A stretch of 62,012 nucleotides of DNA from Natronomonas sp. CBA1123. GTDB lineage: Archaea > Halobacteriota > Halobacteria > Halobacteriales > Haloarculaceae. The notes under the pieces were generated by a model. The model saw nothing but the letters and a program-made list of their open reading frames with translations, was not told where the DNA came from and did no database searches. Below are positions 1,965-27,164 of the stretch, in pieces (within the stretch, counting starts at the first letter, position 1; each line of letters starts with the position of its first letter). The DNA lies in the NCBI RefSeq assembly GCF_009741925.1, contig NZ_WPCC01000017.1, positions 1 through 62,012 on the forward strand. The letters run 5' to 3'. The translations under genes and the position numbers were made by a program.

Positions 1965-4187
1965 ATGAGTACGGAACGCGTCGAGCTGTCGGCCCCCGAG
2001 ATGGACTGCTCGTCCTGTGCCGGGAAGGTACACTCGGCACTGGAGGGTATCGACGGCGTCGTCAACGTAGAGACCCGACCGACCGCCGGCGTGGTCGTCG
2101 TCGAGTACGACGGCGACGCCGTCGACGTCGGGGCACTCGTCTCGAGCATGGAAGCGGCGGGCTACGAGGTGGTCGACACCGAGGGACGACTGACCGAGGG
2201 CACGGCCGTCTGGCGGAGCGACCGCGCCTACGCGACCTACGCCGGCGCCGTGGCGCTCCTCGTCGGCGCAATCGTCAGCGTCGGCCCGGTTCCGGACCCG
2301 CTCGTCGTCGACGTCCTCCGGGAGACGACGCTGTCGGACGTGCTGTACATCGCCGCCGCGGCCGTCGCCGGGGTGCCGGTCGTCCGGGCGGGCTATCGCT
2401 CCGCGAAACTCAGGGAACTCGACATCGACCTGCTGATGGGCGTCGCCATCCTCGCGGCGCTCGGCGTCGGCTACTACGTCGAGGCGGCGACGCTGGCGGT
2501 GCTTTTCAGCCTCGCGGAACTGCTGGAAGCCCACGCGATGGACCGCACCCGGGAGTCGATGCGGGAGTTGCTGGCGCTGTCGCCCGACACGGCGACGGTG
2601 AAACGCGACGACCGCGAGGAGACGATTCCCGCCGCCAACGTCGAGGCGGGCGACGTGGTCGTCGTCCGCCCCGGCGAGCGCATCCCGGTCGACGGCGAAG
2701 TCGTCGACGGGGAGTCGGCTGTCGACGAATCACCGATTACCGGCGAGTCCGTCCCGGTCGACAAGCGAGACGGCGACGAGGTGTACGCAGGGGCGGTCGT
2801 CGAGGGGGGCTACCTCGAAGTCCTCGCGGCCGCCGCCGGCGACGAGACGACCCTCGCACGCGTCATCGACCTCGTCGAGGAGGCCGAATCCAGACAGACC
2901 GACGCCGAGCAGTTCGTCGACCGCTTCTCGGGGTACTACACGCCGGTCATCGTCGCCGGCGCGCTCGCGACCGTGTTCATCCCGCCGCTGTTCTTCGCCG
3001 GCGAGTGGGGGACGTGGTTCGTCCGCGGACTGACGCTGCTGGTCGTCGCCTGCCCCTGTGCGTTCGTCATCTCGACGCCGGTGACCGTCGTCTCGGGGCT
3101 GACGAGCGCCGCGCGCAACGGCGTCCTCGTGAAGGGCGGCGACCACCTCGAACGGATGGGCGAGGTCGACACCGTCGCCTTCGACAAGACGGGAACGCTG
3201 ACGACCGGCGAACTCTCGGTGACAGACGTGGTGCCGGCGGCCGACAGGGACGCCGACGAGGTGCTCCGAATCGCCGCCGCCCTCGAACGGTACAGCGAAC
3301 ACCCCATCGGCGAAGCCATCGTCGACCGCGCCGAGGACGACGGCGTCGAGGTGCCGGACGCCACCGGCTTCGAGAACCTCACCGGCCGCGGGGTCCGCGG
3401 CGACATCGAGACCACCTACTACGTCGGCAAGCCCGCGCTGTTCGAGGAGTTGGGCCACGACCTCGGCCACGCCCACGTCCGGACCGACGGCGGCGCTTCG
3501 GTCGCCGAACGGGCCGACCCCGACTGCGACCGCCCGGGCTGTGTCGACCTCCGTGCGGACACCATCGCCGACCTCCAGTCGGCGGGCAAGACGGTCGTCA
3601 TCGTCGGAACCGACGAGGAACTGCTCGGCGTCGTCGCCGTCGCGGACACGGTTCGACCGGAAGCCGAGGGCGTCGTCGCGACCCTGGAGACCGCCGGCGT
3701 CCGGACGGTCATGCTCACCGGCGACAACGAGCGGACCGCCCGCGCCGTCGGCGAGTCGGTCGGCATCGACGAGGTCCACGCGGACCTACTGCCGGAGGAG
3801 AAACTCGACCGCATCGAGCGGTTGACCGAGACGGACACCGTCGCGATGGTCGGCGACGGCGTCAACGACGCTCCCGCGCTCGCTCGTGCCGACGTGGGCA
3901 TCGCGATGGGCGCCGCCGGCACCGACACCGCCCTCGAAACCGCCGACATCGCGCTGATGGCCGACGACCTCGACGGCGTCCCCTACTGTCTCCGATTGGC
4001 CCGGCAGGCCAACGGCGTCATCAAGCAGAACATCCTCGCCAGCCTCGCGGTGAAAGCCGTCCTCGCTGCCGGCGCACCGCTCGGCTACGTCACCGTCATC
4101 GTCGCCGTCGTCGTCGGCGACATGGGGATGAGCCTCGCGGTGACGGGCAACGCTCTCCGACTCGGCCGCGTCGAACCCGAGGAGTGA
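1965..4187 (+). CDS. zntA: Heavy-metal P1B-type ATPase, Zn/Cd type
   Basis: This is a metal-efflux ATPase of the plasma membrane, 740 residues. An N-terminal HMA domain has the metal pair DCSSC (C15, C18). The sixth membrane helix carries [10 protein letters not shown] with C363 and C365. The phosphorylated Asp is in DKTGTLT (about residue 407), followed by TGDNERTA and GDGVND (about 630). The Ser/Thr-rich context after CPC ([12 protein letters not shown]) fits Zn/Cd/Pb pumps better than Cu pumps, but the metal is an inference. A His/Cys-rich loop between the HP motif and TGDN ([12 protein letters not shown], then CDRPGC) may bind extra metal. It lies between two metal-type regulators, an HTH_10 gene upstream and nikR downstream. 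Confidence 0.9.
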
Positions 4188-22696: not shown

Positions 22697-23746
22697 CTAC
22701 GGACGGAGCGTCTTCGTCGGCATCCGAACGAAAGCCGTCTCGTATCCCTCGTGGCGGGCGAGTTGTGGCGGCGTCATCGTCTCGAAGGCGATTTCCTCCC
22801 CCACGGCGTCCACGGCGGCGCCGTAGTGGTAGCCAAGTTCGGGGTCCATCGTTCGCGTGAGTATCCGTTCGTCGAAACGTGAACCTCCCCGCCGCTGTCG
22901 CATTCGGAGCCCCATCATCGGCAGCGGAATCCGGTTGTACGGCGTATGTGCGAGGACGGTGAGATAGCGGTCGGTATCGAATCTAGCGGCGGCCTCGCCC
23001 GTGAGTCGAAGCACCGTCAACACCGCGTCGCTGGTTTGGACCGTTCCGAGCGTCTCACCTGGAAGGGCCGACGCCGGTGGCACCGTCGAGGCGGGCACCT
23101 CGTCGGTCGGCGACGGCGACAGCGCTCCGTGTCGGCCAGCGTCGTCGTACGTTTTGAAGGGCAGGGTCTCCCGGTCTTCGGGTCGGTAGTCGAACTCGAA
23201 ATCGACGGTTTCACCCTCGTCGAAGCGACCCTCGAAGGCCCCGGTTTTCCGAAGCGGCATGCCGCCGACAGTAATCTCGACGGTGTAGGTATCCTCACCC
23301 GGCAACGCCACGTTGTCGCCGTAGTGGAACCCCATCCGCTGGGATATCATCGAGTAGACGACACCTTCGGTGACGATATCGCCGTCGCGACGAATCTCCG
23401 CGGTGACACCGGCCTCCGGTAGGACGGTTTTTGTCTCTGCATCCCACACCACGGCCATCAGGTGTACCGAGTCATCAGTTTCGACCGACCGGCGGTAGGT
23501 CGTCCGGCCATTGAGGTCCCAGAACCGACTCGGATAGCTGTAGAGAAGCCCGACGCCGTAGTCGCCGACTGTCGCCGTCTTGACGGTCCGCGCTCCGCTG
23601 GCGTGGGTTGGTCGATAGACAGCATCGGGACGGTCCGAGAGCGGTTCGGGTACCTGGATAGACCCACTCGAAAGCCCACCGAGGCATCCCGACCCGGAAG
23701 CGGTGACGGCCGTTGTGGCCGCCGCAAGGAACCCTCGTCGCAGCAT
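22697..23746 (-). CDS. Tat lipoprotein with two iron-transport (P19/Tp34)-like domains
   Basis: The 349-residue protein starts LRRGFLAAATTAVTASGSGCLGG: a Tat-like signal followed by a lipobox (Cys21), so it is probably anchored outside the membrane. Two regions share a pattern seen in the periplasmic metal proteins P19 and Tp34: H95 ... M138 ... H141-Tyr-Gly (SQRMGFHYGDNVALPG) and H267 ... M300 ... H307-Tyr-Gly (TRTMDPELGYHYGAAV). In P19 such Met/His residues bind copper and iron. The duplication and metal role are my inference; the protein would otherwise be called a haloarchaeal hypothetical (DUF7350-like). It is divergent from a halocyanin gene with 86 nt between. Confidence 0.65.
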   Translation of the reverse strand: MLRRGFLAAATTAVTASGSGCLGGLSSGSIQVPEPLSDRPDAVYRPTHASGARTVKTATVGDYGVGLLYSYPSRFWDLNGRTTYRRSVETDDSVHLMAVVWDAETKTVLPEAGVTAEIRRDGDIVTEGVVYSMISQRMGFHYGDNVALPGEDTYTVEITVGGMPLRKTGAFEGRFDEGETVDFEFDYRPEDRETLPFKTYDDAGRHGALSPSPTDEVPASTVPPASALPGETLGTVQTSDAVLTVLRLTGEAAARFDTDRYLTVLAHTPYNRIPLPMMGLRMRQRRGGSRFDERILTRTMDPELGYHYGAAVDAVGEEIAFETMTPPQLARHEGYETAFVRMPTKTLRP

Positions 23747-23832: not shown

Positions 23833-24261
23833 ATGCATCGGCGAGCGTTCCTCGGAGCGTCGATTTCGGTCGTGTTCGGTGGCTGTATCGGTAGTGGCGA
23901 CTCCGGACAAGCGACTACCTACAACGAAGGGTGGTTCGAGAACGTCGACAACTACGACGGCGAGGTCGACCGAACAGACACATCGACGGTCACAGTCGCA
24001 GTCGGCGGTAGCGACGACGGATTGGCCTTCGAACCGGCGGCGATACGCGTCACGCCGGGGACGACCGTCGTCTGGGAGTGGACGGGGCGTGGCGGCCGAC
24101 ACAACGTCGTGGCGGCCGATGAGACCTTCAAAAGCGAGTTCCACGACGAAGGTGGCACGACCTTCGAGTACGATTTTGACACTCCCGGCGTGTACCAGTA
24201 TTACTGTGAACCCCACGAGGAATTGGGCATGAAGGGCGGCGTTCGCGTGGTCGAGGAGTAA
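23833..24261 (+). CDS. Halocyanin-like blue copper lipoprotein
   Basis: This is a 142-residue small electron carrier of the cell surface. A Tat-type signal (HRRAFLGASIS) ends in a lipobox with Cys18, predicting a lipid anchor. The cupredoxin fold has all four type-1 copper ligands: H90 (GGRHNVV), C125 and H128 (YYCEPHEE) and M133 (LGMKGG). The partner redox protein is not visible. It is followed by a beta-helix protein operon after a 100-nt gap and is divergent from a second putative copper or iron protein, so this small region seems devoted to metal proteins outside the membrane. Confidence 0.93.
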   Translation: MHRRAFLGASISVVFGGCIGSGDSGQATTYNEGWFENVDNYDGEVDRTDTSTVTVAVGGSDDGLAFEPAAIRVTPGTTVVWEWTGRGGRHNVVAADETFKSEFHDEGGTTFEYDFDTPGVYQYYCEPHEELGMKGGVRVVEE

Positions 24262-24326: not shown

Positions 24327-24333
24327 TATTATA
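24327..24333 (+). promoter_or_regulatory. TATA box of the beta-helix operon
   Basis: TATTATA centred about 31 nt before the ATG at 24362, followed by a G-rich leader-like stretch. It marks a separate promoter for the three-gene operon downstream of the halocyanin gene. Confidence 0.5.
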
Positions 24334-24361: not shown

Positions 24362-25624
24362 ATGACGCTCAACCGGCGAAAACTGCTCAAAACGGTCGGA
24401 GCGGTCGGTGGCGGGGGTTTCGGACTCGCCGCGACGACCGCGACCGGCCAAGAGGGTTCATCCTCGAAGTTCCCCGCGCCGCAACCACCGCGGGATGACC
24501 CCGACCCCTACGAGGGATACACCACCCATCGTGTCCCCGAGGAGTACGAATCGATTCAGGCGGCGGTAAACGCCGCTGAACCAGAGGACCTCGTCCTCGT
24601 CGGCCCGGGTGTGTACAACGAGGCGGTGACGATACCCGACACCCCAAAGTTGACCATCCGCGGTACGGACCGGAACGAGGTCATCCTCGACGGGGAGTTC
24701 GAACGGCAGGACGGCATCCTTGCGACAGTCGACGATGTCGTCGTCGAGAACATGACCGCACGCCACTACCAGCGAAACGGGTTCTTTTGGTCGGGCGTGA
24801 CCGGGTGGCGAGGGTCCTACCTCACCGCCCACAACAACAAGGTGTACGGGATCTACAACATCGACTCCCAGCACGGCCGCTACGACCACTGTTATGCCTC
24901 CGGTCACACCGACGGCGGCTTCTACCTCGGACAGTGTAAGCCGTGTTACGCCCGGCTGGAGAACTGCCGTTCGGAGAACAACGGCCTCGGATACTCGGGG
25001 ACGAACGCCGGCGGTTACCTCACCATCGCGGATTCGGAGTTCCGCCACAACATGGGAGGCATCGTTCCGAACTCCTTGGACAGTGAACTCGACCCGCCGC
25101 AGGATTCTGCCCGCATCGAGAACAACCTCATTGAGGCCAACAACAACGACAACGCGCCGTCGTTCGGCTACACCTACGGCGCCTTCGGCACCGGCATCAA
25201 CATCGCCGGTGGAATCAACAACGAAGTCCTCAACAACACGGTTCGAGACCACGCCAACTTCGGCATCGTCGCCGGCATCTCGAAAGACGAGAATATCTAT
25301 GAACCGGCGGGCAACCGCATCGAAGACAACGTCGTCAAGAACTCCGGTCGGGCCGATCTCGCGGAAGGTGCGCCCTCCGGAGGCGGAAACGTCTTCCGGA
25401 ACAACGAGTACGACACCGCGCGTCCGGCAGGTCTCGACGGCGGGAACAGAATACTCGACGGCGGCGACCCGTGGGTGTCTATGGTGTCGCTGAAGTTGTT
25501 CATGCAGATGCAGGCCGACGAGAACCCACAGGGGGACTGGAAGACTGCTCCGGAACCGCCGTTCGACGAGCTCGAATCGATGCCCGACCCACAACGACCG
25601 CCAAGGAGGGCGGTCCCGAGGTAA
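24362..25624 (+). CDS. Exported right-handed parallel beta-helix protein (NosD/CASH-like)
   Basis: The 420-residue protein starts with a Tat signal (NRRKLLKTVGAVGGGGFGLAA). After HRVPEEYESIQAAVNAAEPED and LVGPGVYNEAV, the normal opening of CASH-type beta-helices such as NosD and pectate-lyase-like proteins, there are about ten coil repeats rich in Asn/Gly/Asp (IENNLIEANN; VLNNTVRDHANFGIVAG; IEDNVVKNSG). Four Cys cluster at about residues 178-203 (HCYASGH, QCKPC, ENC), unusual for an exported haloarchaeal protein and suggestive of metal binding or disulfides. Substrate is unknown. Its stop is 2 nt before the next start, so it heads a tight operon. Confidence 0.8.
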   Translation: MTLNRRKLLKTVGAVGGGGFGLAATTATGQEGSSSKFPAPQPPRDDPDPYEGYTTHRVPEEYESIQAAVNAAEPEDLVLVGPGVYNEAVTIPDTPKLTIRGTDRNEVILDGEFERQDGILATVDDVVVENMTARHYQRNGFFWSGVTGWRGSYLTAHNNKVYGIYNIDSQHGRYDHCYASGHTDGGFYLGQCKPCYARLENCRSENNGLGYSGTNAGGYLTIADSEFRHNMGGIVPNSLDSELDPPQDSARIENNLIEANNNDNAPSFGYTYGAFGTGINIAGGINNEVLNNTVRDHANFGIVAGISKDENIYEPAGNRIEDNVVKNSGRADLAEGAPSGGGNVFRNNEYDTARPAGLDGGNRILDGGDPWVSMVSLKLFMQMQADENPQGDWKTAPEPPFDELESMPDPQRPPRRAVPR

Positions 25625-25626
25625 CC

Positions 25627-26076
25627 ATGGCGACGAGCGATTCATCCCTGCCACTGTTCGACCACACCCACGACACCGCAACGACGGCGCTGGCAGTTGC
25701 TGCTGCCGCCGTGACGGCGTTCTACGCCGCGTGGTTGACAGCGGACCTCCTCCCCCGGACAGTCGTGTTCGGCGTCGTAGCGCTCACAGTGGGGTTCCTG
25801 TTGTACCGTCGCCCAGATAGGCGGGCGGTCGCAGCCAGCGGACTCTATGCCGTAGCGATACTGCTCGCCGCAACTCCGATAGCGCTGAACGCGACCGTCC
25901 TCGCGACTGCGGACATGACCGGCATTACGGACCCGTGGGCCCGTATCCTCACGGTGACGGACCTGAAGATACTCCTTGGGTTCCTCGTCGTCGCCGCGGT
26001 GCCCGCGGCTATCGGCTACTACCTGAACAACGCGGCCAGTGTGCGCCGCCGACTTTCCGCACTTAGAGAACGATGA
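25627..26076 (+). CDS. Four-helix membrane protein of the beta-helix operon
   Basis: This is a 149-residue protein with four predicted membrane helices (ATTALAVAAAAVTAFYAAWL; TVVFGVVALTVGFLLY; LYAVAILLAATPIALNA; ILLGFLVVAAVPAAIGYYL) and a basic C-tail RRRLSALRER inside the cell. I recognise no family. ATG 25627 is 2 nt after the beta-helix stop and its TGA overlaps the next start (ATGA), so it is certainly co-translated with both. It may anchor or export the two surface proteins. Confidence 0.72.
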   Translation: MATSDSSLPLFDHTHDTATTALAVAAAAVTAFYAAWLTADLLPRTVVFGVVALTVGFLLYRRPDRRAVAASGLYAVAILLAATPIALNATVLATADMTGITDPWARILTVTDLKILLGFLVVAAVPAAIGYYLNNAASVRRRLSALRER

Positions 26077-27164
26077 GAGACACCATACTCCCCACGATTC
26101 TTGCGCTCCTGCTCGCAACGTCCGCAATCGGTGCCGCCATCGCGTTCCCCGTCGCTGCGGATGGGACCTACGAGGACGGCTACTACGCGAACAACGACTA
26201 CTACGACTCCAACGAGTATACCGAAACGATTCAGAGCGCATTTTACGGCATTCCGAACGACAGCCACGAGCCCGGTAACACTGAGGCGACGTTCCACAGT
26301 TACACCGTACCGGGCGAGAAGATAGACGAACCGTTCAACGTCCACTACTACAGTTACCGGACCACGCTCCCGACGGCCAACTGCGGGACCGGCGACATCG
26401 TCGGTGCGGGCATCGACCGTGGCAACAATCGGACCGGAACGACCACAGACATCTCGCTGGTCAACGCTTTCCAGAACCAGCGGTTCACTACAAACAACGA
26501 GTCCGCCGACGAAGAGCCGCCAATGCAACCCCGCGGAGAACGGGTTGCACCAGACGGCTGGGACCACCGCGAGAAGTTGACTTTCGAGTTCGCACAGGAG
26601 TCGGACGGCGCCTTGGCCTCCGACCCGGTCCGCATCAACCCAGACGACGAAGTCATCCTCGGGTTGAAAGACTGCAACGACTTCCCTAACGTTGAAGGCT
26701 GGTACCGGGCCTGGATTTTCGTCAACGGGACGGGCGTCGAATCGGGCGAGGAAGTCGAATTCTTCGCGTTCACCAATTGGGTGTACATCTGCAGCGACTG
26801 TGAGAGTCGAGCCGATGCCCGAGAGAAGTTCGGCCCACCGGGCGGTGACGGCCCCGGTTCCACGGCGACGCCCGAGACGACTGCGACACCGGAATCCACC
26901 ACAACGCCACAGACCACAACAGCGACGCCGGACCCCACAACACCCCAAACGACCGCCACACCTGAACCGACTGACGCCGCGACGCCGGACCCCACCGCAA
27001 CATCCCAGACAACAGCGACGCCAGAACCGGCCGGCACGGCGACATCAAAGTCTACGGCCGGAGTCGGTCCGACTCCGACATCCGGAGGGGGCCCCGGATT
27101 CGGCGTCGGCCTCGCAGTCGTCGCACTGCTTATTGGTGCGGCGCTCCGGACCAGACGAAACTGA
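26073..27164 (+). CDS. Secreted PGF-CTERM surface protein with Thr/Pro-rich stalk
   Basis: The 363-residue protein has a Sec-type signal (ILALLLATSAIGAAIAFPVAA), a ~230-residue globular part rich in Tyr, Asn and Asp with Cys pairs (TANCGTGD, KDCNDFP, ICSDCES), then a ~70-residue linker of TATPE/TTATP-like repeats, likely heavily O-glycosylated. It ends GGGPGFGVGLAVVALLIGAALRTRRN-like, i.e. a PGF motif, one helix and an Arg cluster: the PGF-CTERM signal cleaved and lipid-linked by archaeosortase A. The globular domain is unknown to me. The ATGA overlap with the previous gene makes it the third member of the operon. Confidence 0.82.
   Translation: MRDTILPTILALLLATSAIGAAIAFPVAADGTYEDGYYANNDYYDSNEYTETIQSAFYGIPNDSHEPGNTEATFHSYTVPGEKIDEPFNVHYYSYRTTLPTANCGTGDIVGAGIDRGNNRTGTTTDISLVNAFQNQRFTTNNESADEEPPMQPRGERVAPDGWDHREKLTFEFAQESDGALASDPVRINPDDEVILGLKDCNDFPNVEGWYRAWIFVNGTGVESGEEVEFFAFTNWVYICSDCESRADAREKFGPPGGDGPGSTATPETTATPESTTTPQTTTATPDPTTPQTTATPEPTDAATPDPTATSQTTATPEPAGTATSKSTAGVGPTPTSGGGPGFGVGLAVVALLIGAALRTRRN

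Follow-up and report, generated by a model that had tools for sequence, protein, structure and literature searches.

The β-helix and membrane protein genes of Natronomonas sp. CBA1123 described here (genes 1 and 2) belong to a conserved unit that begins upstream of gene 1. Sequence comparison delimits this unit as a halocyanin gene, a β-helix protein gene and a gene for a four-segment (4-TM) membrane protein, often together with a gene for a P19-like/DUF7350 lipoprotein. It is quite plausible that the unit operates as an extracytoplasmic electron-transfer module with an exchangeable carrier. The linkage of the genes, the identity of the carrier and its ligands, the replacement of the carrier and the fusions seen in bacteria are shown by the sequences, and the β-helix fold by a predicted model; a complex of the β-helix and 4-TM proteins, the docking of the carrier on the β-helix, and the flow of electrons and its direction are what we infer. 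In such a module, the Tat-exported product of gene 1 would be kept on the outer side of the membrane by the coupled 4-TM product of gene 2. Electrons would pass between it and a small, lipid-anchored carrier of single electrons encoded alongside, which would be halocyanin here, HiPIP in one lineage and haem c proteins in bacterial relatives. The P19-like lipoprotein would contribute a metal-binding function in most members of the Haloarculaceae type.

The window, i.e. the whole stretch of 62,012 nucleotides that was analysed, carries all of these genes. The gene of the P19-like/DUF7350 Tat lipoprotein (22697..23746, minus strand) is divergent and represents an optional member of the cassette, which the initial annotation had not mentioned. 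The gene of halocyanin, a lipid-anchored blue copper electron carrier (23833..24261, plus strand), is followed on the same strand by gene 1 (24362..25624, 420 aa), which encodes the predicted Tat-exported right-handed β-helix at the core of the cassette, and by gene 2 (25627..26076, 149 aa). Gene 3 (26073..27164, plus strand, 363 aa), encoding a PGF-CTERM surface protein, is co-directional and lies outside the conserved set. The gap between genes 1 and 2 is 2 nt and genes 2 and 3 overlap by 4 nt (ATGA), exactly as the initial annotation had described them. A candidate TATA-like motif, TATTATA (24327..24333, plus strand), recognised by its letters alone, lies about 30 nt before gene 1; possibly it is the gene's own promoter, in which case the transcript would be leaderless. 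Elsewhere in the window, the protein encoded at 1965-4187 opens with a CxxC metal-binding domain and looks like a heavy-metal P-type ATPase.

The cassette was surveyed by neighbour clustering and HMM searches, extended with further genomes, and 24 distinct loci remained after duplicates, recognised by the length of their contigs, had been merged (L014 = G420, L015 = G414, L016 = G027, L017 = G292). Halocyanin adjoins gene 1 in 20 of them, being co-directional in 18 and inverted in two (G415 and G416), and a carrier gene of either kind is found beside gene 1 in 23/24 loci (20 halocyanin, 3 HiPIP). The P19-like/DUF7350 Tat lipoprotein gene adjoins halocyanin in 15/24 loci and is absent from 9/24; the neighbour in G016 is a divergent DUF7405/Dyp-peroxidase-like protein. 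The constant neighbours proposed for listing by the initial annotation are thus halocyanin (or HiPIP) and, often, the P19-like lipoprotein, all upstream of genes 1 and 2. Its suggestion of an undescribed exported set stands for a set linked to halocyanin, and the redox work at which it hinted is judged likely. The species concerned belong, by their group codes, to at least four families and the wider surroundings of the cassette vary, which indicates more than synteny of close relatives. Cassette neighbours were found in none of 13 further gene 1 homologues (0/13), which form a single sister clade (support 100/99; 42-49% identity). The gap between halocyanin and gene 1 is about 80-160 nt; together with the inversion of halocyanin in two genomes, it suggests that the two genes are possibly transcribed separately, which counts against an electron-transfer module. 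A literature search for the function of the cassette, DUF7350 or TIGR03805 found nothing relevant in open-access papers.

The product of gene 1 matches the Pfam Beta_helix model with a score of 33.7 (cut-off 25.9), and its AlphaFold model is a right-handed β-helix (pLDDT 86.7). The twin-arginine pair R5 R6 at its N-terminus is invariant in 31 homologues, and the TAT model scored 14.7, just short of the cut-off of 16.7. These features and the four cysteines (177, 192, 195 and 202) agree with the earlier description of an exported β-helix with a Cys cluster. The best fold neighbours in the PDB are mannuronan C-5 epimerases and PL6 and PL9 lyases (E ~1e-6), which would suit a carbohydrate-active β-helix, that is, a lyase, an epimerase or a glycan binder working on surface or external polysaccharide, the linkage with halocyanin being incidental or regulatory. 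Such a role seems improbable, however: the matches have TM-scores of ~0.3-0.5 and 9-15% identity, as expected of any β-helix, no pectin or alginate enzyme family matched gene 1 over its cut-off, and the gene is strongly linked to a carrier, repeatedly so and with three types of cofactor. A PDB search with the sequence of gene 1 or its profile gave nothing informative. No cofactor site was seen within gene 1 itself, which counts against the electron-transfer reading.

Gene 2 encodes four hydrophobic segments and has no family match among the profile libraries scanned, in line with the unknown membrane protein noted at first. It is located directly 3′ of gene 1 in 22/24 loci, a count that leaves aside G008, where the contig ends at the gene 2 position; the match in G016 is weak. 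Strong matches to gene 2 across 323 genomes occur in cassette loci only, and in the relatives gene 2 is translationally coupled to gene 1. Distant homologues of gene 2 (L217-L222) are small membrane proteins, some with a zinc-ribbon start and several adjoining exported lipoproteins; among the genes called there, no halocyanin was found beside them.

The halocyanin noted as an adjacent gene was verified by its TIGR03102 score of 129 bits (cut-off 93.8). Its copper ligands H90, C125, H128 and M133, as well as the lipobox C18, are invariant in 20 cassette halocyanins. The 14 genomes examined encode 6-24 halocyanins each, and the best match of the window halocyanin is the cassette copy in 9/11 comparable genomes, the exceptions being G023, where the scores are nearly tied, and G037. 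A HiPIP-domain Tat protein takes the place of halocyanin in G084 and G114; in G084 it scored 26.2 with PF01355 (cut-off 22) and has the four Cys of this domain, and in G114 it is near-identical. G099 was counted as a HiPIP locus by the clade of its β-helix and the absence of halocyanin, its own carrier gene being outside the scan. The tree of gene 1 placed the HiPIP clade (100/100) as sister to the halocyanin-bearing sequences (100/99). This topology fits an exchange of carriers in which copper gave way to iron-sulphur while genes 1 and 2 were retained; the root of the tree was not established, and the direction of replacement is read from the distribution. The β-helix and its membrane partner are constant and the cofactor of the carrier varies; since the handling of copper would be pointless with HiPIP, electron exchange is favoured over copper handling. 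There are only three independent carrier changes on the tree, which counts against the module. A 202-aa multi-TM protein with no Pfam match is conserved near the HiPIP cassettes (L084, L086), at about -1.6 kb from gene 1.

The main rival, the loading of copper, arises from the thiol patch of gene 1 (C177, C192-x2-C195 and C202; 24890..24967, plus strand, with the CxxC codons at 24935-24946) and from the P19-like protein. According to it, the CxxC patch, fed by the P19-like lipoprotein, would load or protect the halocyanin copper in the way that NosD serves NosZ. The CxxC (C192, C195) is present in 18/20 halocyanin-linked homologues vs 0/17 others; the two halocyanin-linked exceptions, like G016, have cysteines 177, 182 and 202 instead, a different trio in the same patch, and no Cys was found in the HiPIP-linked homologues within the part compared. 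The invariant His and Met of the adjacent P19/FtrA-like domain, and the distant relationship of NosD to gene 1, also speak for copper servicing. Nevertheless, the β-helix and 4-TM genes persist with HiPIP, where there is no copper protein, the P19-like gene is missing from nine loci, and most halocyanins of a genome have no such neighbour. Moreover, the contrast between CxxC and carrier comes down to three independent changes on the tree, two of them concordant, and is not significant. It is suggestive of a CxxC that tracks the blue copper partner, and copper servicing is considered rather unlikely. The metal binding hinted at in the initial annotation finds partial support: the Cys patch follows the copper partner and is absent from the homologues with a HiPIP partner.

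The lipoprotein encoded at 22697-23746 scored 29.9 bits with PF10634 (cut-off 21) and 166.7 with PF24041. Its lipobox C21 and the residues H95, M133, H141, M278, H307 and H332 are invariant in 15 orthologues, and the PDB structures that its profile matched are all of the FtrA-P19/Tp34 kind (best E 0.01). A P19-like protein adjoining a cupredoxin resembles the FtrABCD/P19 system, in which the cupredoxin FtrB oxidises Fe2+ in vitro (PMC11966278), and a P19-like domain, a blue copper protein and a membrane protein encoded side by side could be taken for an analogous ferrous-iron uptake system, with FtrA and FtrB counterparts. But the FTR1 permease was found in 0/22 cassette genomes, with 4/14 control genomes positive, and Ftr-type uptake was rejected as the core of the cassette. 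The cassette halocyanin is a type-1 copper carrier, replaced by HiPIP in one lineage, the P19-like gene is optional (missing at 9/24 loci), and Ftr has nothing that corresponds to the β-helix and 4-TM proteins. Ferrous-iron uptake is accordingly regarded as very improbable. A general pairing of DUF7350 with halocyanin was also rejected: outside the cassette, 30 DUF7350 loci gave at most one weak case, which indicates that the halocyanin linkage is specific to the cassette. A separate 3.4-kb stretch with two DUF7350 genes (L113, L115-L118) is shared at 99.97-100% identity by five genomes from two families, which points to recent transfer.

With the NCBI model TIGR03805, gene 1 scored 71.3 bits, below the cut-off of 141.5, and all 31 gene 1 homologues matched it at E<=1e-3 (best 6e-25); gene 1 is probably a relative of this family that falls short of its membership score. 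The pairing of TIGR03805 with the SO2930 diheme cytochrome c (TIGR03806) is alike in that the gene of an exported β-helix accompanies that of a soluble redox protein or is fused to it. The bacterial sample was small and comprised plasmid records only, among which this pairing was observed in Ruegeria and Novosphingobium. The Ruegeria β-helix has a C-terminal haem c stretch, with a visible CxxCH and a CBB3 model score slightly under the cut-off, and its gene shares an operon with those of cytochrome c and a CCP/MauG peroxidase. In Novosphingobium, 11 nt separate the relative from a gene annotated as an SO2930 diheme cytochrome. Of three bacterial records, two have a cytochrome with the β-helix; the archaeal loci have a redox partner with another type of cofactor. 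In Nonomuraea (L146:6536-9021), the β-helix is fused to some five TM segments. The next gene encodes a lipoprotein without a Pfam match; most of its PDB matches are CuA/cupredoxin folds (best E 0.003), and no clear type-1 Cys is seen in it. A large membrane protein, also unmatched in Pfam, follows this lipoprotein. No carrier neighbour was found in the readable part of the Hymenobacter, S. clavuligerus and S. camelliae records, which, like the small size of the bacterial sample, counts against the module.

The cassette is kin to a known but uncharacterised bacterial pairing of a β-helix with a cytochrome, and its carrier types and partners are new: in place of haem c it has a blue copper protein or HiPIP, and it also comprises a 4-TM partner encoded separately and a P19-like lipoprotein. 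It is conceivable, though we propose it with more reserve than the module itself, that an undescribed exported electron-transfer system extends across Archaea and Bacteria, with a constant β-helix and membrane partner, a carrier based on copper, iron-sulphur or haem, and a thiol patch that appears with the blue copper carrier. Exported β-helix proteins are abundant and are mostly annotated as carbohydrate-related or NosD-like, and a natural swap of cofactors beside the same β-helix points to electron transfer. This reading offers a testable function for the bacterial β-helix/cytochrome pair and for one halocyanin among the 6-24 that a genome encodes, few of which have known partners.

The resemblance to NosD of the NosDFYL system consists in an exported CASH-type β-helix near a membrane protein. 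The similarity is weak: gene 1 scored 27.7 bits with the NosD profile TIGR04247, far under the cut-off of 300, whereas the true NosD of the host genome scored 368.6 bits and is encoded beside NosZ on another contig. No Nos genes adjoin gene 1, and nosZ is present in 4/22 cassette genomes. Maturation of NosZ was rejected on these grounds, as the initial annotation had anticipated. The true nosD lies near nosZ and a halocyanin gene (L216, G000:C48:354-4394).

Gene 3 was correctly named a PGF-CTERM protein. Its sorting tail (27078..27161, plus strand; residues 336-363) scored 33.1 bits with TIGR04126 (cut-off 24.5), the protein also has a stalk rich in Thr and Pro, and it shares four invariant Cys with the rest of its family. 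The sorting tail and the stalk liken it to archaeosortase substrates, which bears on the anchoring of gene 3 alone and not on the conserved cassette. Of the genes proposed to stay together in relatives, genes 1 and 2 do so and gene 3 does not: among the gene 1 loci fetched, it adjoins gene 1 only here and in G012, of the same genus. A search with its globular part against 392 genomes of the order gave matches in 12 genomes, and genomes of the same genus and family contain up to nine such matches each, several in tandem. Gene 3 is therefore one member of a family of surface proteins that has expanded, and it entered the operon in a single lineage; its restricted distribution and the many copies of its family suggest a later arrival in one genus rather than a part of the cassette. 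A three-gene system, as initially proposed, was rejected. That genes 1-3 act jointly at the cell surface, with gene 3 as an anchored effector, is hardly to be expected: the tight spacing of all three genes, retained in G012, is in its favour, but all other cassette loci lack gene 3, and its family forms multi-copy tandem arrays elsewhere. Structure prediction for the globular part, suggested earlier as a check, did not help, since the model was weak (pLDDT 61) and had no match under E 0.001; its best fold matches, uninterpretable with such a model, were adhesin and pilin-type folds and the copper-binding YcnI. No Pfam or NCBIfam domain was found for the globular part of gene 3-type proteins. 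These proteins of ~350 aa, with four invariant Cys, a GWY-NGT motif and a PGF-CTERM tail as hallmarks, form tandem arrays in this genome (L098, G000:C40) and in congeners (L101, G001:C1:1508000-1527900; L102, L107 and L110).
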